Shown: piece by piece, positions 10,484 through 53,369 of the stretch
Numbering within the stretch: the stretch's first letter is position 1
Layout of the letters: the number at the start of each line of letters is the position of its first letter
Assembly: GCA_027946365.1 (NCBI GenBank)
Contig: JAPEUQ010000017.1
Span: 744,001-808,000 of the forward strand
Direction of reading: 5' to 3'
Length of the DNA: 64,000 nucleotides
DNA from: Kalmusia sp. IMI 367209
Taxonomy: Eukaryota; Ascomycota; Dothideomycetes; Pleosporales; Didymosphaeriaceae
Notes under the pieces: generated by a model
What the model was told of the DNA's origin: nothing
Databases searched by the model: none
The model's input: the letters and a program-made list of their open reading frames with translations, nothing else
Position numbers and translations under genes: made by a program

Positions 10484-11973
10484 TTACCTGTCTACCTCGC
10501 CAAATACGAGGTCCATCGTCCCAATTATGGCCACAGCATCTGCAAGTAAATGCCCTCTTGAAATTTGATCCATGCAGGCCAAATGTGCGAACCCAGGCGC
10601 CCTAATTTTGCATCTGTACGGCCTCTCGCTGCCGTCTGAGACTAGGAACACACCCATCTCGCCCTTGGGAGCCTCAATGGCACTGTAAGTCTCGCCAGGT
10701 GGAACACTATACCCCTTGCTGAAGAGCAGGAAGTGGTGGATTAGAGCCTCCATGTTCTCCTTCATAGCGGCACGTGGCGGAGGGGCGATCTTGTAGTCCT
10801 CGACTTTTACGGGACCGGCAGGCATTTGATTGAGACATTGGTGGATGATACGGAGTGACTGGCGGAATTCTTCCATGCGACAGAGGTAACGGTCGTAGCA
10901 ATCACCGTTGACACCAACGGGCACGTCAAATTCTACCTTGTCGTATGCATCGTAGGGCTGCGACTTGCGGATGTCCCACGGCACACCGGAGCCTCGGAGC
11001 ATAGGGCCGGTGAAGGAGTAGTTTATGGCGTCTGCTGCTGAGACGACACCAACGCCCTTAGTGCGGCCAATCCAGATACGGTTGTCCGTCAACATCTCCT
11101 CGGTTTCGTCGAGACGATCACCGAATTGAGTTGCCCATTGGTAGATGTCATCAAGGAGGCCGATAGGGATGTCCTGCGAGACACCTCCAGGGCGCACGTA
11201 GGCTGCGTGAAGACGTGCACCAGACACACGCTCGTAGAATTCCTAGGCAACTCGGTCAGAAGCTAGCCAAATGCATCGTGCGGGGCCCAGTGGGAACCTA
11301 CCATAAGCTTCTCGCGCTCCTCAAAAGCCCACAGGAAAGGCGTCAAAGCGCCAACATCCATAGCGTGCGTGGTAACCGACATGATATGGTTGAGAATGCG
11401 GGTGATCTCTGCAAACATGGTCCTGATGTACTTGGCCCTCTCGGGGATCTCGATGTTCAGCAGCTTCTCCACAGCCAGCGAAAAACACTGCTCGTTCGTC
11501 ATCATGGAGACATAGTCCAGACGGTCGAAGTATGGCAGGGCTTGCAGATATGTCCGATACTCGATCAACTTCTCCGTCCCGCGGTGTAACAGTCCAACGT
11601 GGGGATCTGCGCGCACGATCTCCTCGCCGTTGAGCTCCAGAATCAAACGCAATACACCGTGGGCAGCCGGGTGCTGGGGGCCAAAGTTGACGGTGTAATG
11701 CCTGATCTTCCTATTCTCGGTACTCGACCCATCGTCGGAAGGCGCGTTCAAGGCCCCATGGCTCTCAGGGTCAACGGGGTGGGCGAAATCGGCATCGGTC
11801 TGAATCAATCGAGTGCGCTGGCTGTCTTCTACATCGGCGTAGTGGCGCGGCCGCGAGGTGGATAGGCAGCGGGCAATGGGTCGTAGTCGTGGTGCGTTGG
11901 CAAGGTGCGGTCGGGGCGTCTGGCACAGCCGTTTCGCGGCATGGCCGGCATAACGCGCAAGGGAGACGGGCAT
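10484..11973 (-). CDS. nuo-49: NADH:ubiquinone oxidoreductase 49-kDa subunit
   Basis: Two exons, 11973-11302 and 11242-10484, with a 59-nt intron (GTAGGT..CCTAG), give 476 residues, close to the family length. The protein is the nuclear-encoded core subunit of mitochondrial complex I (NDUFS2/NuoD) that lines the quinone site. Visible hallmarks are an Arg/Ala-rich mitochondrial presequence of ~45 residues, [28 protein letters not shown], the join [19 protein letters not shown] and the C-terminal [21 protein letters not shown] end (here [18 protein letters not shown]). The ATG at 11973 was chosen because the presequence begins there; the open frame continues upstream to 12195 but without targeting character. 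It is head-to-head with RPC40. Confidence 0.97.
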
Positions 11974-12210
11974 TGCGGGTGTGAGCGGCCGGCGATGCCC
12001 TTTTGCGACGTCAATGGGTGGGCGGAGGGGAGATTGTTGGCGTGGCGTTGGGAGGAAGCTCTGCGCTTTTCCTATGATGATGAGAGGATATTGCCGAGCT
12101 TCCAATTGGCCTAGCAGCGGGCCGGCCTTGGCACCGATGTCGAAAAAAGTTCCCAGAGTTTCGCGAAGCTCCCCGCCAAAACCACGAATCTGCACGCCAC
12201 CACTGCAACC
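11974..12210. promoter_or_regulatory. bidirectional promoter nuo-49 / RPC40
   Basis: Only 237 bp separate the start codons of two divergent housekeeping genes, so their promoters must share this segment. I identified no specific factor site. Confidence 0.7.
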
Positions 12211-13467
12211 ATGCCGGGACCGACTGCTGACGAGCTGGTGCAGCGGAAGGTGTGTGCGCGATCCATTTTCTGCCGGCCTGGCTTGCTAACAGTGCCTGCA
12301 GAAACTCCAAGTGGGCATTGAAACTGTCAGCAACCAAGCATCCACAGACTTCCCAGGCCACTGGCCCGGCGAGAGCCATGAGTGGGACTTAGATTACTTC
12401 AAAGATGTATGTCTTTTTCATGCTCACCGGATATTCCTCCCCATTAGAAGCCATACTTATTGTCTCAGAACCTTCACATCGACTTCCACTCCGAGTCCGA
12501 TAATAAATTCGACCTCACATTCTCCCTCATTGGCGTTGATACCTCCGTCGCCAATGCCCTCCGCCGCATTCTCATTGCCGAAGTCCCTACTCTCGCCATT
12601 GAAGATGTCTTCATCTACCAGAATACCTCCATTATACAAGACGAAGTGCTCGCTCACAGGCTCGGCTTGATCCCATTGCGCGGTAATCGTGAAGCCCTGC
12701 GCTGGATGAAATGGTACCAAAAGCCGAACGCTGAACTGGGGGAAGAGACAGACACCAAAAGTGACTACAATTGTGTGCGACTGGCACTGAACGTAGAGTG
12801 CAAGTGGAAAGAGGGCGGTCTGGAGGCAGCAAAGAAGGGCGAGACGAATCCTGACGAGCTCTACGTACACCACAACATCTACGCCAAAGATATCACCTTC
12901 GAGCCTTTTGAGAAGCAGACAGAAGTCTTCCCAGAGGATGACGGGATACGCTCGTCGCATCCGGACATCCTCATCGCGAAGATGAGGCCAGGACAGCACA
13001 TTGAGCTTTTGATGCATGCGTACAAGGGCATCGGACAAGACCACGCGAAATTCTCGCCTGTGGCGACGGCGACATATAGACTCATGCCGACCATCGACAT
13101 CCTGAAGCCAATCGTCGGCGCCGACGCAAAGAAATTTGCGCGCTGCTTTCCCAAGGGCGTCATTAAGTTCGGAAAAGTCACCTCATCAGACGCCGAATCC
13201 CATCCCGAGGAATGCGCCGGCAAAGAAGGCGAGGTGAAAGCCGAAGTCGACAACCCAATGGCAGACACAGTGAGCAGAGAATGCCTCCGCCACCCCGAAT
13301 TCTCAAACAAAGTCAAGCTAGGCAGACTACGGGACCACTTCATCTTCAGAGTAGAGAGTACGGGGCAGTGGGATAGCGATGAGCTGTTCCTGGAGAGCGT
13401 GCGGTTATTGAAGATCAAGGCTCAGCGGATAAAGAGGGGCTTGAACTTGATGATGAACGATCAGTGA
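12211..13467 (+). CDS. RPC40: RNA polymerase I and III subunit AC40 (RPAC1)
   Basis: Three exons, 12211-12249, 12302-12406 and 12469-13467, with introns of 52 and 62 nt, give 380 residues. The protein is the alpha-like subunit shared by RNA polymerases I and III, which pairs with AC19 in the assembly core. Seen: the alpha-motif [50 protein letters not shown], and the C-terminal D-domain part ([19 protein letters not shown]). The short first exon codes for [13 protein letters not shown], and the second for the WDLDYFK segment usual before NLHIDF in this family. Three-exon phase is consistent throughout. Confidence 0.96.
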
Positions 13468-24822: not shown

Positions 24823-25876
24823 CCATTCCTTCCTCCGTCGTCCGCATCTCCTCCCATCCCAGATACCCCTTCTTTCTGTTCCTACGCGCCTCACGATTTC
24901 GGACCCCGCACGATGCCCTGCTCACGCTTCCCAGCTTCCTCTCCCCGATACCATTTTAATTCTATCTACCGATCCGCACTCTCAGCATCTGCACTGTCAC
25001 TTACTCATCCCATCCAACGTATGAGCCCTTGCATAAGCGGAGTTCCCCTGCATTGTTCGGAGCGTTTTCCTCATCATCTACACTACGCGCACCTCGTACC
25101 TTTTTTCTATGTAATAGACGGGCATCTGTACGGTATTTTTACTTTCATTGTTGCAGGCTCAGGTGTTGAGCTGCTATTTTGTCGGACGCCAAGGTTACTG
25201 GCTGGATTGTGGAGTTTAGTGATAAGTTGACATACCCTGAATGCAATAACATGCTCAAATGATGGCTTCGTGTGGCTTTGATTGTGGGGGAATACGAGGA
25301 GGAAAGGAGATATCGTGAGTGGATGGTTGACGAGGCGAAATGTATTCGTGTTCAAAGAATTTGATATCGTACTTAAAGTGGATGTTTGAGGTGAACTATT
25401 GAAATTGTGGATCACGGCGGTTCCTCGACGCGCCTCTGTCGTGCTACGTTCATTGCGTCTCGCACATCAGATTACGACTGTGGAAATTTGGCATCGGGAA
25501 GTGGACTTCGTGCATGCAAGGCAAGGAGAGGAGGAGTGCAAACCTACCCCTTCGTATTACTATTGAGCTTGGGTTCTTTATCTCGAGTACAACATGACTA
25601 TGCACCTGTCTGCAAGTTATAGTCACGTGGTACTAATGCAGCTCGTTGATCTTGACTTGCGCCTTCCGTAAGTTAGGTGAGATGCTTGAAAAGGCATGGC
25701 TTATAAATTGCCGACTGTACGTCACCGGAATGAATTGCCTGCGGAATGACTAGCCTGGCTGAGCTTCGCAGCTTCCCAGTCATTCCTAAAATTTTGTATC
25801 ATGAAGCTTTGCATCCCTCACTTCTTAATTCTTAAAACCTTCGAGCTTTACGTATTTCTCTCTACTTTTCGTGACC
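24823..25876. other. intergenic, no gene seen
   Basis: This holds the 3' flank of the SDR gene and the promoter of the proline-racemase-family gene. No frame with a recognisable protein was found. Confidence 0.6.
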
Positions 25877-26968
25877 ATGCGTTTCTCGCGAAAGCTCGAC
25901 GTTGTCGGTGTCCATGCAGAAGGCGAAGTCGGCGATGTTATCGTGGGCGGCGTCTTGGACCCGCCCGGGCATCGAATGTACGACAAGATGATCAATCTAT
26001 GGGAAACGAACGATGGCATCAGAAAGTTATTGCTCAACGAACCTCGTGGTCGGTCGTCGATGAGCACCAACTTGATTGTGTCTCCGTGCAATCCTCAAGC
26101 ACACGCAGGCTTAATAATCATGGAGACTGACGAATACGTGCCCATGTCCGGCTCAAACGTAATATGCACGGTAACAGCCCTCCTAGAGACCGGGATGATT
26201 GCCATGCAAGAGCCCTTGACCGAGTTGACGCTGGACACGGCTGCTGGACTCGTGACAGTCAGGGCTGAATGCAGCAACGGCAAATGCAAGAGCGTGGAAT
26301 TCCACAATGCACCATCTTTCGTCTTTGGACTTGACCAAGAGATACTTGTCCCAGGTCTAGGCACGATCAAAGTCGACCTCGCTTATGGAGGTATGATATT
26401 TGCTTTCGTCGACGTTGCGGCCGTTGGACACAGCCTAGAGGATCATCAAGAAGACGGCGCCACCCTCGTTCAGCTAGGAGAGAAGATCAAAGCAGCAGTA
26501 AGGGCGCATATCACCCCAGTGCATCCGGAAAATCCTGCCATTCGAGGTGTAACCAACGTGGTGTTTGTCGACCCCTTAACAGACACGCCTTCGGGCAAGG
26601 CTAGCAAGAATGCAACCGTCGTCATGCCTGGGAGGCTTGACAGAAGCCCTTGCGGTACTGGAACCTGTGCTCGCATGGCGGTCTTGCATGCACGAGGGCT
26701 ATTGAATGTTGGAGACACCTTTCTCAACCGAAGTATCATAGATACTGAATTCTTGGGTCGAGTCGTAAACACAACAATAATCGGCAACTACCCGGCTATC
26801 GTCCCTTCTGTCAAAGGGAGAGGCTGGATAACAAGTTTCAAACAGGTCGTGTTAGATCCGTCGGACCCTTTCCCTGAGGGCTTTCGCGTTGGCGATTCGT
26901 GGCATCCTCCTGTGCCAGGACCGTCTGTCAAAGAGAACGTATTGAAAGCATATCATGCTAAAAAGTAA
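25877..26968 (+). CDS. proline racemase superfamily enzyme with Ser/Cys catalytic pair
   Basis: A single exon of 363 residues, starting at the ATG at 25877. The fold is that of proline racemase, hydroxyproline 2-epimerase and trans-3-hydroxy-L-proline dehydratase. The second catalytic motif DRSPCGTGTCARMA (about residues 255-268) keeps its Cys. The first, usually M-C-G-H, reads PMSGSNVIC here (about residues 92-100), so Ser replaces the first catalytic Cys. In this superfamily a Ser/Cys pair has been linked to trans-3-hydroxyproline dehydratase or 4-hydroxyproline epimerase activities rather than simple proline racemisation. RGWITSFKQVVLDPSDPFPEGF is the typical C-terminal part. It opens a block of catabolic-looking genes; there is no proven link with them. 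Confidence 0.92.
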   Translation: MRFSRKLDVVGVHAEGEVGDVIVGGVLDPPGHRMYDKMINLWETNDGIRKLLLNEPRGRSSMSTNLIVSPCNPQAHAGLIIMETDEYVPMSGSNVICTVTALLETGMIAMQEPLTELTLDTAAGLVTVRAECSNGKCKSVEFHNAPSFVFGLDQEILVPGLGTIKVDLAYGGMIFAFVDVAAVGHSLEDHQEDGATLVQLGEKIKAAVRAHITPVHPENPAIRGVTNVVFVDPLTDTPSGKASKNATVVMPGRLDRSPCGTGTCARMAVLHARGLLNVGDTFLNRSIIDTEFLGRVVNTTIIGNYPAIVPSVKGRGWITSFKQVVLDPSDPFPEGFRVGDSWHPPVPGPSVKENVLKAYHAKK

Positions 26969-30535: not shown

Positions 30536-33500
30536 CTATGATTTTCCGTCATACTCATCGATCACACTGACCGGCTTTGCGAACTTCCCCAGTGGCTTAT
30601 ACTCCAGATGATCCAAGCCGAAACCCTTAGGCCCTCCGATCTCAACGCCCTTCGGACTGGTCCATCGCTCACTCGCCGTAATGCCTACCACAAGCACCAA
30701 TAGTCCATATCGGTACTCCGGCGTCCCAATGGCCTCCCCATTCTGCGCATCGATGACCGAAATCAAATCAGGCACAATTGCCAGCACATCCTCGTTCTTC
30801 TCTTCACCAGTCTTGCTCTCTATGCCGTCATGCAACCGGATTGCAGCAATGTTCTCGTTCTTGAATGGAATCTTGATCTTACCAGCAAACTCTGTGCCCT
30901 TGGCACCTTCGACAATCACTTCGCCGTAGATGTGTCCCATCCAAAGCTTGCGCTCCACGCCGACTATCTTGCCTTTGAAGAGTACACGTCCGGTCTCAGG
31001 GCCTCCAACCGCATTTATAATCGATTCAGCGACGTTGTCAATCCGGTTTTCTTTTCGCGCGCGGGCTACTTCCCGGCCGATGCGCCACGACAAAGAAATT
31101 GTGTGTTCAACCGCCCACCTTCTCGTCTCTGCACCCGTCACTGGGCCATCGGCGCAACCTACATGACTTCCCATTTGGCTTAGGGCTGCTCTGATCACTT
31201 GTTCGACTTTCAAGTCGCTCGTCGCTGTAGGCATGTACAAGATGTTGCCGTTGCCATCGGCTACGGAAACTGGTGCGAAAACGATCTTGCGTTCACCAAA
31301 GACCACAGGAGTCGTCTGCCACTTCGTCGGATACGCACGACCCATCCAGTCACCGTCAACGCAAGGGATGTTCATGTTGCTAGATGCGCCTAGCACAAGG
31401 CCCTGGAGTCCGTTAGAGCCACCAATCTCGAGTGGAATGATATGTGTCGCGCGACCCCCCGGGAAAAGTTTGTACATGTGTTCTTGAGCGTCCATCATCC
31501 TATAGGAGAAATCAGCGAGTATCTTTGTAGACGTCATCTATAAAGACTGGAGAGTTCTGGACGTACTCATCTCCAGCTAGCTTCTCAATGCCTACAGTAG
31601 GACTGCCTGCACCACCTCCGCTTCCCACTCGATCATCGTCTTTGAGGTCATCCGGGTTTACAACACGGATATTCGCCCCAGCTCGTAGTAGACCGCGCAC
31701 ACGCAGCATCGAAGAATAAGGAGAGCCACCACCGCCTGTGCCAAGAATGTAGCATCCAATTGTTATCCACTGGAGGTCTGTTTCTGAAATTAGCCATTCG
31801 CGGTTCACCACTTTCGGCTTGTAAGTTGCGAAATCGACATCCACAGCCGGGTCTGGCTCAACGTCGTTTTCTCCGATTGATGGAGGTTCGAGGCTGCTTG
31901 CTTCTCGGTTCGTGTCTGGTGTTGAAACTTCGGCATCAGTTGCAACATGAAGCTTTGCAAAGTCTGTAGAACGGGCATAGTCGAAGTCTCCTGCCGCTCT
32001 CACGATAAACCGTGATTTATGCGCAATGTACGGCAGCGGCAGTGACTCTACCTCAACAATCTCTACAGACTCTGCCGATGCACCTGCTTCGATCGTCTTC
32101 TGTCGGGCTGCCTCTTCTATCTCCAATTGCAGTTCCTTTGCGCTTTTCTTCTCCGTAGACTTCACTGTGTCGATGACAGAGCTCACTCTTGCCATCGCGG
32201 CACCGATCGCGTTGGCAACGCCAGACCATTCTGGTTTGATCACGCGTCTCGCTCCTTTCAATTCGTCGGGTGCAATTACGGCGCCTCCGCCTACGAGAAG
32301 AACCGGAAGGTCTTCGGGTGAGGTCTTCATAGTGTCGATGATGTCCTCCAGCATGCGTTTTGTTTCAGCTTTGAACGCTTCGATGTCGTCGCTGATCAAT
32401 TTTCCACGGACCTTACTTGGTTCACCAATGGCTAACTCAGTAGCTGCGGCGACTGTGTAGTCGGTGGCAGTCGGTACGTCACCTCCGAACACGAGTGACT
32501 TTTCAGTAAGTTTGTAGCCTACTGACTCTGGCCCAACATGCATCTTTCCATCGATTCTGCGTACAAGCGAACCACCTCCGAGGCCAATGCTTTTCACATC
32601 CGGATACGAAAAATTCATGCGCACGCCGGAAAGCTCAGAATACGCAGCTTGTTGCCTGGGAAAGCCGTTCGAAAGTAACAATCCTACATCTGTCGTGGTA
32701 CCACCAACATCAACTACCATCATCGCTTCGCCGTGGTTTTCTTTGCCGACTAGGAAAGCAGCACCGCGCATACTGTTTGTTGGACCTGAGCTGAATGTGC
32801 GGATGGGCAGATGAGCGGCTGCATCGCCGGATAAGATCGTGCCGTCGTTCTGTGTAATGAATACTGGACAACGTAGACCAAGCTTTTTAATAGGCGTTTG
32901 GAAAGAAGCGATCGTTCGTCGTGCAAATGACAGTACAGAGGCATTCAGAATGGCCGCATTTTCTCGCTCGAGAAAGCCGAGGTTTGCCACGGTCTTGCTC
33001 AAAACTACGTCCACATCACCTAATTCTCTCTTAACGATCTCAGCTGCTCTTTCCTCCTGCTTCTCCACTGTGTCTATTGGCGAGAAGATACCGTTGATGA
33101 CTATACTCTTGATCCCTTTTTCCTTGATGGTTTTACACTGTTCAACTATCTCATTTTCCCCGATATCGGAAATCAAATTGCCATCAACCTCCAGACCACC
33201 TCTTAACAGAGCGTGATGACTGAGTATAAGGTTGCGCAAGGGGGTGGGCCAGTCTATACAGGGCGGAGCATGCTTGCTGAAGGGAGCACCCAGACGAAGC
33301 ACAGCAACGCGCGAGAGGCGCGTACGATCGCGCGTTATTACGGCATTGACGAAGTGAGTGGTTCCAATCGTGACGCTGGCTACGGATGATGGATCCACGG
33401 AACCCGATTTGAACATGGTTGTAATTGCCTCCGCGATGCCATGACTGGGGTCTGTAGTAGTCGGGGCTTTATGCCTGCACTGTGGATTAGTGACATGCTC

Positions 33501-33783
33501 TATAGAAGGTAGTGTCACTCGGTATTGATGCTTCATAGCCCTGTGCGATGCAAAGTCACGTGCCAATATCATCCACCTAATCGCCCCCAACATAGCTCAC
33601 ATCGTCACTTACCACGCAATGATACCCCTGTCAGCCTCCCCCGACCTTGTAGGGTCGATAATGACTCCATCCGTGTTCGTGCTGAAAGATTATTAGTTGT
33701 CTCGCTCTTGAGGTAGTTGTGGTGACTTACCCGCCAACATCCACACCAATGCGCAAGTTCTTTTGCCCAGATGCAGAGCTCAT
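30536..33783 (-). CDS. hydantoinase/5-oxoprolinase fused to DUF917 domain
   Basis: Four exons, 33783-33731, 33681-33613, 33474-31567 and 31499-30536, with introns of 49, 138 and 67 nt, give 997 residues. N-terminal part: hydantoinase/oxoprolinase, an ATPase of the ASKHA fold that opens cyclic amide rings. Seen are the phosphate loops RIGVDVGGTNTDGVI and VVDVGGTTTDVGLL, SVTIGTTHFVNAVI, and LLVGGGAVIAP. From about residue 615 the DUF917 fold follows (QWITIGCYILGTGGGGSPY, GSGGGAGSPTVGIEKLAGDE, PLEIGGSNGLQGL, VPCVDGDWMGRAYP-like NIPCVDGDWMGRAYP). In bacteria the two parts are usually separate neighbouring genes; some DUF917 relatives are thought to be thiohydantoin desulfurases (from memory). It is divergent to an NCS1 permease, so a role in ureide or lactam catabolism is likely. 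Exact substrate unknown. Confidence 0.93.
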
Positions 33784-34243: not shown

Positions 34244-36091
34244 ATGGCTGTTCGCCAGCGCCTCGTTGCCATCGATCACAAGATCCGACTACAGGGCGAC
34301 GTAGCGCAGCATGAGCAGACCGATGGTTGGAGTAATCGCGATCTGATTCCTTTACCTCCATCGCGCAGAACATGGGGTTGGTTCAACTTTTTCGGCTTCT
34401 GGTCAATCGCGAGTCTTAACCTGGCGAACTGGCAAACGCCCAATACGTATCTAAGTACTAATGAAATAATCATTTCAACGCCCAGATACTGACTGACGAC
34501 AGCAATGGGCCTTTCGGTTCGCCAGGCTATGCTCATCATTGTAATCGGACGAGTTCTCATCACTATGTTTTCGACTCTAATTGCCTGGGCTGGTCTGAAA
34601 TGGCATATTGGCTTTACAGTCCAAAATCGGTACTCGTGGGGCATGAGAGCAAGCTACATTCCGCTCTTGCAGCGTATCCTCCTGAACTTCATCTGGAATG
34701 CTGTTCAATGTATGTTTATACGCTTGAAGTCTCTGGATCGTCAGTAAACATTGACCAATTACTAGGTTGGAACGGCGGCAGGCTCTGCGCAGTCTGCATC
34801 ACTGCAATTTGGCCTTCTTTTGCACGCATCAAGAACAGGTTCGGCCCTGATATGCCTACCACTACCTACGAATTTGTTGGCTTCGTGGTGTTTTGGTTTT
34901 TGTCGACTCCTTTTCTGTGGCTCCGACCGGAAAAATTTAAGATACCATTCTTGATAGTCTGCACTTGGTGCAGTGTAGGCATGCTCGCATGGATGATCTG
35001 GGCGTTAGCAGTTGCGAAAGGACTTGGACCTTTGTGGAATACTGGACAACAGCTCCCGGCAGGATCGCCTTGGAGTTCCTCGTGGTTGATCATGGCTGGC
35101 ATCAACCAGTCTCTCGGAAGTCTAGCAGCTGGCATCACGAATGGCTCCGACTTCTCCCGTTACGCCTCCGCCCGAAGGCACTATGTCATTGGAGCAATTA
35201 CTAGCTGTCTTTTCACCGGTGTTATTGTGTCTCTAATCGGATTAGTCACTGCCTCTGCTGCACAGAAGATATATGGCGAGGTATATTGGAATCCTCCAGA
35301 TTTACTCATGGTCATGATGGATAACGGAAATGGCTCATCAAAGTCGCGCGCTGCCGTGTTTTTCCTGTCTGCTGGGTTCGCATTCACAGCCATGTTCGAA
35401 AACATCTGCGGTAACGCAATTGCTGGAGGAATCGACCTGGCCGGCCTTTTCCCACGTTATATCGACATTAGACGCGGAGCTATCATAACTTTTCTAGCAG
35501 CTTGGGTGGTACAACCTTGGCAGCTAATCAATCGCGCGACGACATTCATCGCCGTCCTTTCGTCTTTCTCGGTGTTCCTGGCACCCATGATCGGTATTAT
35601 GGCATGCGACTATTACATACTTCGCAAACGCAGAGTTAGACTCAGTCACCTATACCGTACCTCAGATTCGTCATACTATTTCTGGAAAGGCGTTAATTGG
35701 CGGGCAATACCGGCATGGATTTGTGGATGGGCACCAACAATCGGTGGACTCATTGTGACAGTTCGCATGGACCCGAATCCCCCAAGACCGTTGGTGCAGT
35801 TGTACTATCTGGCATTCTTTATTGGTCAGTATCTCGCACTTCCTGATTAGGCCTACTAGACTCTGACCACCTGTAGGGTTCTTCATAAGTGCTTTGGTAT
35901 TTTACTTGCTCAACCTCGCTTTTCCAGTACCAGACATGGACCAGATCGACGATGTGGACGTATATGGCACTTTTACTGCTGCAGAGGCGCGCAGAATCGG
36001 TGTCGTACCCCTTTCCGACGATGCTTCCATCTCTGGACTTAACGACGCCGAGTTTGTTCGCCCATCGGAGGGATTGAAGTCATCAGACTAG
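34244..36091 (+). CDS. NCS1-family nucleobase/allantoin-type permease
   Basis: Four exons, 34244-34454, 34503-34709, 34766-35824 and 35877-36091, with introns of 48, 56 and 52 nt, give 563 residues. It is a plasma-membrane secondary transporter of the fungal Fur branch of NCS1 (uracil, allantoin, uridine, thiamine or related cyclic substrates). Seen: cytosolic N-terminus with DLIPLPPSRRTWGWFNFFGF, the join TYLTMGLSVRQAMLIIVIGR, FTVQNRYSWGMRASYIPLL, NGSDFSRYA, MFENICGNAIAGGIDLAGLFPRY-type loop, and a CDYYILRKRRV loop before the last helices. Hydrophobicity fits about 12 helices. The acidic C-terminal tail suits ubiquitin-dependent turnover. Divergent pairing with a hydantoinase suggests that a hydantoin, allantoin or oxoproline-like ring is its cargo. 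Confidence 0.93.
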
Positions 36092-46783: not shown

Positions 46784-49700
46784 ATGGCTGCACCATCATG
46801 TCCTGTCAGTGGACAAAGTGGTCTTTCCGGTGGCACATGTCCGGCAGGTCAAGCTCGCCTTGGACCGCGTGGATGTGCTTTCGCAGCCTTCCAGCCGAAC
46901 TTGGGAGCACCTACAGTCTACTCGGACGTGAGTAGCCCCATATTTGACATTTGGGCGTTCTAAATTGTACCAGAGCACAAACAATGTCAGTATCCTTCAC
47001 GAAAAGGAAAGGAAAGCTTTGAATGAGATGTTACTTCCCGAAGCACCTTTACGGGAAACGACCAAAGGTCTAAAGAACGCCGACGAGCTCCAACCAGCTG
47101 ATGACGACCTTCTTGCATTTGCACTTGGTGCCCCAGCACGAAGAGTATTGACCCGAGCAGAGGAGATTGGTCCACGGACAGGGTGGAAAGACGGCTACCT
47201 CTCCTCTACATACGGTTTCCTCCCCCCCGATCCATCTGACTCTCCAGTTGCCCTTCGAGCCTCTCCTGGCCGCATATGGTCGGACCTTTGCGAACGCATG
47301 CCTGGGGTTGTAGCACGAGGAAATATGCGCAACTCGATTCTTGCTCTACCACTAGTGTACGGAACTCCTGATGTCATACCGGATCGAGCTTTATGGGCAG
47401 CAACAGTCTGCCTTGGCATCTTAGCCAGTGTATACCGGTACGAAGAGGCCAATGATGGCAATGAAGGAGTGGCAGTCGTACCTCCACAGGGTGCATTCAA
47501 GAATATACATGGTGATGATGACGAAGAAGAGGAAACAAAGGGTGTTCCTAGAAACATAGCAATCCCTCTACGTCAAGTCTGCACGAGAATGGGACGAGCG
47601 CTACCGCATCTAACCCAGTTTGATGTATCGATATACAATTATAAGCTTCGAGACCCGACCAGTATCCAGCCTTACGTTGTAAGGACGGAGAATATGGACC
47701 TACGATGGCCTGTAAGTGATGCATCTCAAGCTGATGGTGCAGTGGTGTGCTAAGCATCTCAGGTGTTTAATGACAGAGGAGAGGCCATGTTCCTTCTTTG
47801 CATGGCAGAAGTGCATGGTTGCTTTCAAACCGGCATCGAAACGATAACGCGATGCCAGGAAGCTGTCATGAACCGGGACGACGAAACCCTACTCCGTGAA
47901 ATGGTCACGTTAAAGGAACTTGTCGACCAGCTGGCCTACGTCTTCCACAAGATTAGTGTCAATCCTAATGCTGGCGAGCAATTTGCGAATCCCGTTGAGT
48001 GGGGCCAACGGTACGCAAAATTCAGTGCACCTTTGTCAAAACGGGTGCCGGCCCTCTCTGGATTAGCTCTTCCACTCTTCCTTTTAATGGACGCTTTCAT
48101 TGGACGAACCAAGTACACTTCTTTTCTCGGAATCGAGGCTGTCCACTTGCGAAGGTGGCTGCCACTCAATATCCGGGCCTTTATCACCGCAGTTGAGAAT
48201 CACTATCGGGTACCTGAGTATGTGAAGTCGACTGGTGATCCGAGGCTTGCGGGAGTCATGGAAGGCATTATTGAGTCCTACGCTGGAGAGCGAGGTTTTA
48301 TGGGCACTCACCGGTACAAAGTATACGGGTTCCTCGAGGTGGTCGCTAAGACTGGTCGTACAGAAACCAACGGAAATGCAGGTTCAGGCGACTCTGACGG
48401 AAGAGCCTGGGAAGAGGTCCATCGGACGTTGTCTGACTCTATGAAGGAGAGGCTGGATCCGTATCGTGGCGAGGTCAAAGTACAGCCTCATCAGATGCGA
48501 GGTAGCTTCGAGGAGTGTAGATTTCAAGCCCGCATCTTAGATCGACAGTCTATTGACCAAGATCCGCAGAGGCTGACCGGTATGGTCACATTTGACTTGC
48601 ACAATACGGGCATCACGTTCCAACCAGGTGAGCTACTTCCGCGATGGTTTCTACTAGCGACTATCGTCAAGATGTAGACATAGGATGATTACTGAACGTA
48701 AATCTAGGCGATCGTCTAGCAGTCATGCCAGTCAATCCATCCTACGAGGCAGCAAAGGTTGCAGCCGCTCTAGGTCTAGACGAGATGTGGGACGTGCTTG
48801 TCCCAGTCGAACAGGGCTCCATATGGGCGCGATTCTCCAAGCATCTGGACATCGTGTCTAAGACACCTGGCGCAGGATTAACTGTTAAGGACATTCTGAA
48901 GCGGGGACACTTGGCACCGCTCACGAAGGACTTAGTTCTTTCGGTAGGACACCAACTTTGCTTCGAATATTAAGTATTAACTAACTTTCCCCAGCTTCAC
49001 CAGTTGCTTCGCGCATCATCACAGATCACACTCAAGATCCTCGCTTCGGATGAGTGGCCTGTCAAAGGTAGTGTGGGTGATCTCCTGCAGACTGCTATTG
49101 CCGAAGTCCCACAAGACATTTGGGACCGTGCATTTGATCTTTCCAACCTTGCATGGCTACCAAAGCTTATTGCTCTCGAGGTGCCACGCACCTACTCAAT
49201 CTCAAATGCGTCGAGCGAATTGCTCCCGAGTATGATCGATCTAACCGTCTCCCGAACAGAATCCGAACGCAATCCTCTCTTTCGTGGAGTGCAACCAGAC
49301 TTCCCACTGTATGGTGTATCAAGTGGTTTCTTAAACCCAGCCCCCGGGGTGCTCCAGTATCCATGCGACACTACAGATGACCAAGCAGTGCTCATTGGAG
49401 TATCTAGGCCGATCCAATTCCAGCTTCCACCATCAACAACAGTTCCCGTCGCGATGTTCGCTGGTGGATCTGGTATCGCACCTTTCCGTGGCTTCTGGCA
49501 GAAACGCGTGCAGAGCGGCATCGGGCGCAATATTCTATTCCTCGGCGTACAGTCGCGCGAGAAGTTCGTCCACGAAGCCGAGCTCCAAGGTCTCGTACAA
49601 TCAGGGTCCCTCGAGCTTCACACTGCATTCTCACGAGATAGACGAGGCTTAGTCTACGATCCAGTAATGAGAGAGCTAGTCGAACAAGATATGGATCCCC

Positions 49701-51981
49701 GATATATCGACACTACGATCGTTGACCAAGGACGGCTAGTTTCCGAACTCGTAATGTCAAAAAATCAAGGTGGATTGGGCGGGTACTTATACATTTGCGG
49801 TTCTGTGTCCGTCTATGAAACTGTAATGTCAGGCATCAAAAAAGCCATCTACAAGTATCAAGCATCTACACAGTCTACGGCTGACTCGCTGTTGGCCACC
49901 GCTTTTGCTGAGCGTCGATTCATGCTAGGTAAATCCATCCCACTATTATACGCGCCATTCGGCTGATTTAGGATTCCAGACATTTTTATGACTCCACGAT
50001 CCATGTCCAATTTGAGCCCTACGATTCCGATGTCCCAACTTGCAGCCCATACTGGCCATAGAAAGGGCTCACGCATGTGGATCGGGGTGCATGGTGGAGT
50101 ATACGATGTGACCGACTTCTTGCCTATGCATCCAGGTGGCACTCTTATCGTCGCCGCAAGTGCTGGGCTTGATGCTACCAAAACCTTTCACGAGTTAGCT
50201 CATGATGTAAGCTCCGCCCTCCAATACCAAAATTTCAGCTAAAGTTATCAGACCAACCCTGAAGTCTCATCCTTGCTGTCGAAGTATTTTATCGGCCACC
50301 TTCACACGAAACCGGATTTTCACTCGAAAGAGATAAGCAGTCTCTACGACATGTGGTACCAATACCTCCGAACCAGTGTTGAAAGCCTGACCACATTATA
50401 CTTTGAAGCAAACAACATCCTGGAAGATTCGAAAATCTGGTTTTCCGGCGGCTTGTTCAACATCGGTGGTGTACGTAAGTTCTATCAGTTCCAGAGCAGG
50501 CTGATGCAGAACGGATTCTCCACTCTCTTTGGGGTACGTACACAAACTTAACTTCAAAGATTATTTCTAAAGGTCTACAGGCTAAGCTCCAAGAGATCTA
50601 CCTGAAGCTATCATTTACGATGGCGAATGCTGTTGCCCCTACCGTCAGGTTACCCGACATCATCGGCACGATTACTAGAGCACATTCATTGCCCGATGCG
50701 AGGAAAGCTATGCGAGAGGTTTCTCACATAGGCCAATTCGTAAGCAACAATAGCAAGTCTGCACGCTTTCACGAGAACGGCATCCTGCGATATGCTCAGG
50801 CAGCAACCGAGCTTGACGTCTCATTCCTTGAACAAATCAGAGACGAGGCTGGGCAAGGGATGGATGCATTCGACTTGATCGCTGCTTTGGATGAGCCAGC
50901 CTCTTCAAAACAGATTAAGCTCGCTTCCTATCTTCTTACTGTTCTAGAACGAATCGCTGCGCGATTAGAGGCTTATTACGCATCCCTGTCACAAGAGTCG
51001 ATTTATCGCCCTGAGATCGAGAACAATCCTGCGCGCACGCGATGGAACAATGTTCGACGCAAGATAGTTGATGGCTCGTTCTTCGTTCTAGCAAGCCCAC
51101 CATCCATGTCGGCCAGTGACGGGATGTCTGGATTACGCTCACGCCCTGGGCCAAATGGTGTCGAAATCGACTTTGCTCAAATATTTGCCAACGCCCAAAA
51201 GACACTACAGTATAGCCCACAGGCGGCATTAAGCTCATCATCTAGTGCGCAACCCAGACGTCTAGCAGACATGCACACAGACCGCGCTGCAAATAACACC
51301 CAGGCGCCGAGCACTTTCGATATGCAGCAGCAAGGCAATGCATTGCGACGGATGTCAAATTTCATCACTGACAACATGTCCACCATCCGGCGCCTAAGCC
51401 GCCTTCCCGCCGAGTACGATTTCGCGAGTTTGATGGCAACGTACGGAAAGCACCCGCAGCAACCTCCAACACAGTCTTTACCTAGTCACGCAAAGAGTCC
51501 AAGCACGGCGTCAAGTACTAGCAGTCAAGGCCTACGCGTACGTGCCCACACAAACAATCGCTCGATCTCTCCTCTTCCAGCCCCAGCGCCTCTCCGCATC
51601 AGATCCCGCACACCCTCGCTCGAGAAGAACCTCCAGCTCCACCATCGGCAGACCGTACAACAATCCGCTCGTACCGATGCATTGCCGGCAGTCCAATCCC
51701 TGTCATACTCGTCTCCTATGAATGCACAGTCGACTCATGCTGCCCTCAACGCGGCTGTTGCCCAACTTCACCGCCGCCAGCCTCCTCGCAGTACCACACC
51801 ACTACCTGCATCGCCGCGCGCGTCGCTTGCTTTGAGCGCAACGAGCTCGAGGAGGAATTTGACTGCTGATGGGCCTCTACCACCAGTACCAGGTGTGCCC
51901 GCGGGGCTGAATGCGTTGAAGATGGCTGCTAGTGTCAGTGGGGATGAGTTGAGGTTTCAGCAGGTGCAGATGAGAATATAA
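46784..51981 (+). CDS. IDO-like heme domain fused to FAD/NAD(P)H reductase and cytochrome b5
   Basis: Eight exons, 46784-46927, 46974-47711, 47763-48627, 48708-48943, 48995-49928, 49980-50206, 50252-50533 and 50581-51981 (introns 46-80 nt, all phases consistent), give 1608 residues. Residues ~129-495 resemble indoleamine 2,3-dioxygenase: GFLPPDPSDSP; DRGEAMFLLCMAEVHGC; HLRRWLPLNIRAFI, then STGDPRLAGVMEGII and THRYKVYGFLEVV, whose His (~477) matches the proximal heme ligand. Residues ~530-973 are a P450-reductase-like FAD and NAD(P)H module: ITFQPGDRLAVMPVN, VPRTYSIS (~724-731), GGSGIAPFRGF (~818), ICGS (~928); no FMN domain. Residues ~985-1070 are cytochrome b5 with HPGG (His ~1023) and FHELAHD (His ~1047). 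The tail of ~540 residues is helical, then Ser/Pro/Gln-rich and disordered. The likely electron path is NAD(P)H, FAD, b5, IDO heme. The substrate is unknown. Confidence 0.9.
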
Positions 51982-52871
51982 GTTTCATTAGTGTGTTGGT
52001 TATGTGTAGGTTTGAGGGGTATCAACTTCACATCATTATGTCGATTTTTTTATTAGGTTTACGCGGAGGTATGCTACCTAATGCATATATGAATATATTT
52101 CTAGTAGCATACTTAAAACTCTCATGCGCCGGTGAAGCTATTCATCTTATCTTGTACGTACGGTCACGAGTGAGTTGCGGTACTATGTCAGTCTAAGTCT
52201 ACACCTATTCCCAAACTCCGTCAAAGCTTGTCATCAATCTATGACTCTATCCTTGGATGAGAATTACTATATAAGTTTTACGAAGCTTCGAAGCGTTGTA
52301 CGTAGTTCAAAGGATAGTAGACTAACAAAAATAGTAGCGTTTCCCTCCTGCTTTTACAACTAGAAAGGCTGTTGAAAGGTGGTGACAGTAAAAGCTTTAG
52401 CATTACTATTACTACTTGCTACTCAATGTCAATGACTCCGTCCAATATTCGCTTTGGTGTCAAGTATAGATGGTGTTCAACAAGCTTGTCGCCTCGACAA
52501 ATTCATAAGACTACCAAGCGACTGGTCAGCTAAAGATTAGAAGAGATGGCACAAGAAGAAGAGGTTATCCTCTGGGGCATGTGGATTACATGCATAGCTA
52601 CGAATACAATTTGTGTTGAATTATAGTAAGACGGAGGCCCGCTAGTGTGGCGTTGGTCTAGCAACGCATATCGCCTAGCCTGATGTAACCAACCCCTCTT
52701 TCCGCATGTTCCTTATGTACCGTGTGCATACACGGGTGTATACTCCATTCTCTGCACAATAGAAAAACCATCACAGATATTCACAATATTTATACAAGGG
52801 TATCTATCGTATGTGATATCCCAAGAAGGCCGATTCCAGTCTTCTCCAATTATCAATTGGTATCGCACGCG
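51982..52871. other. intergenic, partly AT-rich
   Basis: No gene was seen. From 52000 to 52400 the DNA is AT-rich with no lasting open frame. The last ~150 bases are the leader of the DUF4267 gene. Confidence 0.6.
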
Positions 52872-53369
52872 ATGCCATACTCCCCGAACACCAGCATTCT
52901 CTCCCAAACTGTGCCCATTATTCTTCCTAGTCTTACATCCATCCTCGGTCTCACAGCCATCGCAGGTGGCACGTACTCCTTCATCTCCCCACTCACCGTC
53001 ATCAAAGGCTTTGGCCTCAGCCCACCTCCTTCGCCATCGTCTTCTCCTCGAGCAGAAGCCTTCCGAACCGCGATCATTCACGCCTACGGTATTCGCAATG
53101 TAGCCTCCGGCCTCTCTATTCTCAGTCTTACGTATTCTTGGCTGATTGAAAAAGATGCAGCGACGAAGTTGGTGGTGAAGAACTGTTTGGGTACGATTTT
53201 GGCGATTGGAACGGTGGTGGCGTTCGGAGACGCATGGCTGGTGGGTGATTATGTGGCGTGTGAGGGGGTGAATGGCGATGATGAGGAGGCGGGAAAGAAG
53301 GCTGCAAGAGGGCATGCAATTGCGGGTGTAATTGTTGCGCTAGTAGGTTCAGCCTGGCTTTTCGGGTGA
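52872..53369 (+). CDS. DUF4267-like small membrane protein
   Basis: A single exon of 165 residues from the ATG at 52872 (MPYSPNTSILSQ). Four hydrophobic segments are visible: PSLTSILGLTAIAGGTYSF; IRNVASGLSILSLTYSWLI; NCLGTILAIGTVVAFGDAW; and AIAGVIVALVGSAWLFG at the end. AYGIRNVASGLSIL is the conserved core seen in DUF4267 proteins of fungi. The frame is open upstream to 52722, but the family pattern begins at the chosen Met. The function of the family is unknown. Confidence 0.8.
   Translation: MPYSPNTSILSQTVPIILPSLTSILGLTAIAGGTYSFISPLTVIKGFGLSPPPSPSSSPRAEAFRTAIIHAYGIRNVASGLSILSLTYSWLIEKDAATKLVVKNCLGTILAIGTVVAFGDAWLVGDYVACEGVNGDDEEAGKKAARGHAIAGVIVALVGSAWLFG

Follow-up and report, generated by a model that had tools for sequence, protein, structure and literature searches.

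The 64,000-nucleotide window analysed here (positions 744,001 to 808,000 of the forward strand of contig JAPEUQ010000017.1, assembly GCA_027946365.1, Kalmusia sp. IMI 367209) contains a gene that joins, in one predicted chain, a heme domain of the indoleamine 2,3-dioxygenase (IDO) type, an FAD/NADPH reductase of the cytochrome P450 reductase (CPR) type and a cytochrome b5. An earlier note, made from the letters of this DNA, had proposed the fusion and had suggested that its product is a self-sufficient heme dioxygenase or oxygenase. We have examined the gene model, the relatives of the protein and the properties of its heme domain.

Gene model and domain layout

Rebuilding the splice model gave the same eight exons, coordinates and 1608-residue protein as the earlier note had described. 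All seven introns are GT-AG introns of 45 to 80 bases, and the spliced reading frame has no internal stop and a single terminal one. An earlier AG was considered as the acceptor of intron 5 and was rejected because it breaks the frame, which the acceptor at 49979 preserves. Conservation was counted over 174 alignment rows, that is, the window protein and those 173 of 300 fetched proteins that have at least 1480 residues; 127 shorter proteins were omitted, including the chytrid protein P0095 (1448 residues). Junctions 2 to 7 were gap-free, over 10 residues on either side, in 158 to 172 of the 173 homologues. Junction 1 lies in a variable region and was gap-free in only 9 of the 173 (6/9 among the best scorers), which leaves the boundary between exons 1 and 2 less certain than any other in the model. 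Exon 3 spans the border between the IDO fold and the FAD domain, with an unbroken open frame.

Four Pfam families matched above their curated cut-offs: IDO (PF01231) at amino acids (aa) 124-359 (E 3.8e-15; 56 bits against a cut-off of 26), FAD_binding_1 at aa 547-760 (E 7.4e-11), NAD_binding_1 at aa 815-871 (E 1.3e-6) and Cyt-b5 at aa 991-1065 (E 4.6e-15). These matches confirm the order of IDO-like, CPR-like FAD/NAD(P)H and cytochrome b5 domains that had been read from motifs, and they place an IDO-family profile in the region (aa 129-495) to which the heme domain had been assigned. The reductase has both of its Pfam families, FAD and NADPH motifs and, in a homologue model, a CPR/SiR-type fold, while the cytochrome b5 has its profile and two axial histidines (see the table). 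Among the cofactor-binding residues examined, the set for NADPH, FAD, b5 and heme was intact in the alignment rows. An FMN-binding flavodoxin family was not found by Pfam in the window protein (E<=1) or in six relatives (E<=0.1); globin, nitric-oxide synthase (NOS) oxygenase and P450 domains were absent from the scans of the same seven proteins, and no Mo domain was found in the scan of the window protein.

Table. Features of the fusion gene and its predicted protein, in window coordinates
Feature	Position	Strand	Basis
Whole gene, 8 exons, predicted 1608-residue protein	46784..51981	+	scripted splice model
Exon 1, N-terminal region with Cys motifs CPVSG, CPA, GPRGC	46784..46927	+	splice model
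Exon 2, aa 49-294, N-terminal half of IDO-like domain	46974..47711	+	splice model, Pfam
Exon 3, aa 295-582, C-terminal half of IDO-like domain continuing into FAD domain	47763..48627	+	splice model, Pfam
Exon 4, FAD domain	48708..48943	+	splice model, Pfam
Exon 5, remaining FAD domain and NADP domain	48995..49928	+	splice model, Pfam
Exon 6, reductase end and most of cytochrome b5	49980..50206	+	splice model, Pfam
Exon 7, b5 end and start of helical module	50252..50533	+	splice model
Exon 8, helical module, variable tail, stop codon	50581..51981	+	splice model
IDO-fold heme domain, aa 91-530, intron 47712-47762 inside	47100..48470	+	
H477 codon, candidate proximal heme ligand	48309..48311	+	column conservation, MAFFT
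CPR-type FAD/NADPH reductase, aa 540-976, introns inside, no FMN domain found	48498..49990	+	
Cytochrome b5 domain, aa 985-1065	50015..50302	+	Pfam
b5 axial His 1023	50129-50131	+	His in 172/174 rows, 2 gaps
b5 axial His 1047	50201-50203	+	His in 174/174 rows
Conserved helical module, aa 1080-1320, without Pfam match	50345..51114	+	
Variable C-terminal tail, aa 1321-1608	51115..51978	+	
RRLS motif in tail, aa 1412-1415, kinase-site-like	51388..51399	+	column conservation

Relatives of the fusion protein

The whole-chain homologue search returned 374 proteins at E<=0.001. Relatives were listed as the best 120 of these 374 and, for a second full-length query, a Podospora protein, as the best 120 of 368; clade counts reflect both searches. 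All four Pfam domains were present in 105 of the 120 listed from the 374 matches. The top-scoring match is a Lentithecium fluviatile protein, with 84% identity over the full length. Many of the listed rows are nameless metagenome entries, and every named, recognised match among those listed is fungal. We take these to belong to the Dothideomycetes, Eurotiomycetes, Leotiomycetes, Sordariomycetes, Pezizomycetes and Agaricomycetes and, in the chytrids, to Gaertneriomyces, two of the lineages having been looked up. Redundancy and gap filters left 80 of the 174 rows, and a tree built from these by a fast method has two clades: one of 25 rows, which includes the window protein, basidiomycetes and Pezizomycetes, and one of 55. 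By sequence, then, the protein is a member of a widespread family with at least two clades.

The host genome carries a second copy of the full architecture (L017; C27 2215594-2220048, minus strand), 50-62% identical in pieces to the window protein. One open frame of this paralogue spans the end of the IDO domain into the FAD domain, and another extends from where the NADP domain ends, across b5, to the C-terminus. The second copy was not part of the tree; residues 9-1599 of a Lentithecium protein, P0074, match it at 59-86% in pieces, and P0074, dropped from the tree as redundant, has its nearest rows in the larger clade. The architecture proposed in the earlier note stands, and it is not confined to this locus: at least 105 relatives have the full set of domains, and there is a second copy in the same genome. 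Because domain borders lie inside open frames both here and in the paralogue, the presence of separate genes, which would have undone the proposal, is very unlikely. The idea that a wrong splice model has fused neighbouring genes is hardly conceivable when the same four domains recur in the listed homologues, and it is very likely, on the gene model, that the locus encodes one large protein.

A search with the IDO domain gave 101 matches which, judged from the table of results, look like the same fusion, whole or in fragments, many of them resembling exon-level gene calls; no clear stand-alone IDO ancestor was seen among them in that table. A two-pattern scan of prokaryote species genomes yielded 49 stretches, with one relative, a reductase-only match at 27% in a Chlamydiae metagenome-assembled genome. 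The same scan of viral contigs yielded 12 stretches and 0 relatives. In both scans the two short patterns may miss remote relatives.

Members of the family carry the labels 'NADPH--hemoprotein reductase', 'sulfite reductase flavoprotein alpha-component', 'Nitrate reductase [NADPH]', 'related to nitric-oxide synthase, salivary gland' and 'putative indoleamine 2,3-dioxygenase'. The contradictory family names in records P0005, P0040, P0045, P0083 and P0282 may mislead surveys of fungal NOS. The 'NOS-like' knock-out genes NOL2/NOL3 of M. oryzae and NCU05185/NCU05006 of N. crassa were suspected to be members, were not confirmed by sequence and were not used. NCU05185 may be a P450foxy-type protein; other papers call it 'NADPH-P450 reductase' or P450-related. 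We found no description of an IDO, reductase and b5 architecture among the open-licence papers listed by searches aimed at it, and one may exist elsewhere.

The heme domain and its proposed reducing chain

The Pfam profile and the predicted fold both support the IDO-like identity given to the heme domain in the earlier note. The AF2 models are of two homologues, P0049 and P0031, and not of the window protein itself. P0049 is without its N-terminus and b5, and its last ~20 residues are unrelated; P0031 lacks the IDO domain's N-terminal part, and its end too is unrelated. With the first model as query, Foldseek gave a top 50 of reductase-containing chains only; the IDO rows, at 19-20% identity, come from a second-look aligner. 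H477 is His in 173 of 174 rows, the other being a gap. In three MAFFT modes it shared a column (18/18 family rows) with the His of each of the host genome's three canonical IDOs, and a forced profile alignment again paired it with the His of canonical IDOs; this residue lies beyond the end of both the phmmer match to human IDO1 and the match of the default profile comparison. As the residue preceding the His varies, a strict proximal-His pattern was found in 109 of 173 proteins and column counts were used instead. These alignments make H477 a candidate proximal heme ligand, which we take to be the counterpart of IDO1 His346.

Does an IDO fold imply that the substrate is tryptophan? The canonical motifs IRPxLxG, GGSNxQSS and GTGGT are not kept in the fusion family, as judged from a remote alignment against the three canonical IDOs of the host genome, two of which have the motifs and the third of which is divergent. 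Two stretches of its own, APLSKRxPAxSGL and TNG, are nearly invariant in the family. The default profile comparison with IDO (E 1.4e-12, window aa about 124-450) is at 17% identity, so single-residue equivalences are weak. The three other IDO genes of the host genome (C1 at 3646935, C29 at 766391 and C1 at 3258169) had no reductase or b5 match adjoining them in a host-genome search with the whole fusion protein. The last of them (L005, G000:C1:3258169-3259451) is the divergent one and is perhaps of the fungal gamma type. Since the family does not keep the substrate motifs and the genome has three further IDO genes, 'IDO-like' should not be taken to mean tryptophan dioxygenase, and on sequence grounds such a role for the fusion protein is unlikely. 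A tryptophan (or indoleamine) 2,3-dioxygenase that merely carries its own reducing system is, in our estimate, quite improbable: the canonical motifs, in which one of the host IDOs diverges too, are absent, and the three other IDO genes could cover tryptophan breakdown. Columns at least 98% conserved make up 124 of 440 in the IDO-like domain versus 107 of 437 in the reductase. As the heme domain is as conserved as the reductase, this suggests a single conserved substrate rather than a fast-changing one.

Three regions are additional to the domain reading of the earlier note, as far as the alignments and predictions indicate. At the N-terminus (aa 1-36), C6 is Cys in 128 of 174 rows (41 gaps), C19 in 126 (44 gaps) and C31 in 135 (38 gaps); the CPVSG, CPA and GPRGC motifs around them (window 46784-46891) resemble heme-regulatory CP motifs or acylation sites. 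The helical module has 36 of 241 columns at least 98% conserved and is helical, at modest confidence, in an AF2 homologue model that covers it to about aa 1286. No Pfam family was found for it, the one match among PDB sequences (E 1.3) was taken as chance, and the result list of a fold comparison with its model was filled by reductase matches. The tail has a mean majority fraction of 0.34, with 5 of 288 columns at least 98% conserved. Within it R1412, R1413, L1414 and S1415 occur in 163, 173, 173 and 174 of 174 rows and F1403 in 174 of 174; the consensus there is RMSxFxxxNMxxIRRLS and the rest is variable. RRxS resembles an AGC/PKA-type kinase site. The Ser of RRLS is possibly a kinase site, and such a site could switch electron flow.

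Taken together, these observations suggest how the protein may work. If the chain is loaded with its cofactors, NADPH would reduce the FAD of the CPR-type module, and the FAD would hand single electrons to the fused cytochrome b5, a transfer that we propose because no FMN domain was found. From b5 the electrons would reach the heme iron in the IDO-like domain, and this domain would bind O2 and oxidise a small substrate that is probably endogenous and is probably an aromatic compound. The helical module and the RRLS tail may position the b5 or regulate electron flow. We consider it reasonably probable that the family is a widespread group of fungal self-sufficient, His-ligated heme oxygenases on an IDO fold, with electrons passing from NADPH through FAD and b5 to heme and with a substrate that is unlikely to be L-tryptophan. 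A self-sufficient heme enzyme, as the earlier note had it, is the simplest reading of the order of the domains together with the IDO fold and the intact residue set, though probably not in the sense of a tryptophan dioxygenase.

Two other functions deserve consideration. Cytochrome b5 domains usually serve outside acceptors, and the protein might be an NADPH-cytochrome b5 donor to outside enzymes, such as those of sterol or fatty-acid pathways, in which case its IDO-like domain would sense O2 or heme. A regulatory look of the helical module and of the tail with its invariant RRLS Ser would fit such a donor. However, the IDO domain is conserved at least as strongly as the reductase and its 101 matches appear to be fragments or the same fusion, and we regard this alternative as rather unlikely. 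Flavohaemoglobins turn NO into nitrate, and the reducing chain might similarly keep an IDO-type heme ferrous for the conversion of NO to nitrate or of nitrite to NO. A nitric-oxide enzyme of this kind is unlikely: the Pfam scans gave no globin and no NOS oxygenase family, the NOS label of members probably follows reductase similarity alone, and the nearly invariant APLSKRxPAxSGL loop has no obvious need in a plain NO scavenger.

Several points weigh against a self-sufficient oxygenase. The Pfam IDO match spans only profile positions 7-211 of 412, its N-terminal half; the comparison of substrate pockets is built on remote alignments; no AF2 model combined a complete IDO domain with b5; and HPGG of b5 is missing in 2 of 174 rows (P0107 and P0286). 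The b5 could serve an outside partner, and the IDO-like heme might sense a gas instead of catalysing. Cytochrome b5 has been proposed as the reductant of human IDO1, yet a review reports higher activity of human IDO1 in the methylene blue assay than with b5. PrnB, of the IDO superfamily, gave no product with b5, P450 reductase or other donors, according to another paper (PMC11791213).

A bolder form of the self-sufficient oxygenase reading, to which we give roughly an even chance, is that the family forms a new class of IDO-fold heme oxygenases, from chytrids to mushrooms and ascomycetes, fed by NADPH through FAD and b5, that carries out an undescribed conserved fungal reaction and is a natural covalent version of the proposed human b5-IDO1 partnership. 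If this is true, a widespread fungal heme oxygenase class is hidden under sulfite reductase, nitrate reductase and NOS labels, and fungal 'NOS-like' lists, as a warning, may include such fusion proteins. The family would also offer a one-chain system for settling the reduction of IDO-type hemes by b5, which is debated for IDO1, and a His-heme counterpart to self-sufficient P450s.

Neighbouring genes and related systems

The scan of 20 neighbouring stop-to-stop frames found 6 with housekeeping-type families, 9 with other families and 5 with none, and there was no clue to the substrate among these frames. Two overlapping frames at window 30536-33596 (minus strand) have hydantoinase-type and S-Me-THD-like domains and are probably one protein, since one S-Me-THD_N domain is common to both. 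Near them lie a purine/cytosine-type permease (34465-35850) and a proline racemase (25829-26968), and these genes are perhaps a small catabolic group. The downstream neighbour of the fusion gene (window 52689-53369) has a DUF4267 domain (E 1.3e-17). A frame at window 11266-12285 (minus strand) has a weak NiFeSe hydrogenase match (E 7.7e-4) that, at 19 against 25.8 bits, is below the cut-off.

The fusion protein can be set beside several known systems. P450-BM3 and P450foxy/CYP505 combine a Cys-ligated P450 heme with an FMN domain; the fusion has an IDO fold and a b5, and no FMN domain was found. The analogy with P450-BM3 drawn in the earlier note thus holds for a protein that has its own reducing chain and fails for the make-up of that chain, where b5 is found instead. 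Nitrate reductase and NCB5OR have an FAD-to-b5 electron route in one chain, and this route would be shared; however, the FAD module of the fusion is of the CPR/SiR type and no Mo domain was found. In the Pfam scans the fusion also differs from nitric-oxide synthase, being without NOS oxygenase or FMN domains. TyrH, SfmD, MarE and PrnB are not known to carry a fused reductase or b5. These natural-product enzymes, set beside the fusion by description only, belong with IDO and TDO to a His-ligated heme superfamily and do chemistry other than tryptophan dioxygenation (PMC11791213). Compared with IDO1/IDO2 and the fungal IDOs (PF01231), to which it aligns at the low fold-level identity given above, the fusion protein adds a reductase and a b5 and does not have the canonical substrate motifs.

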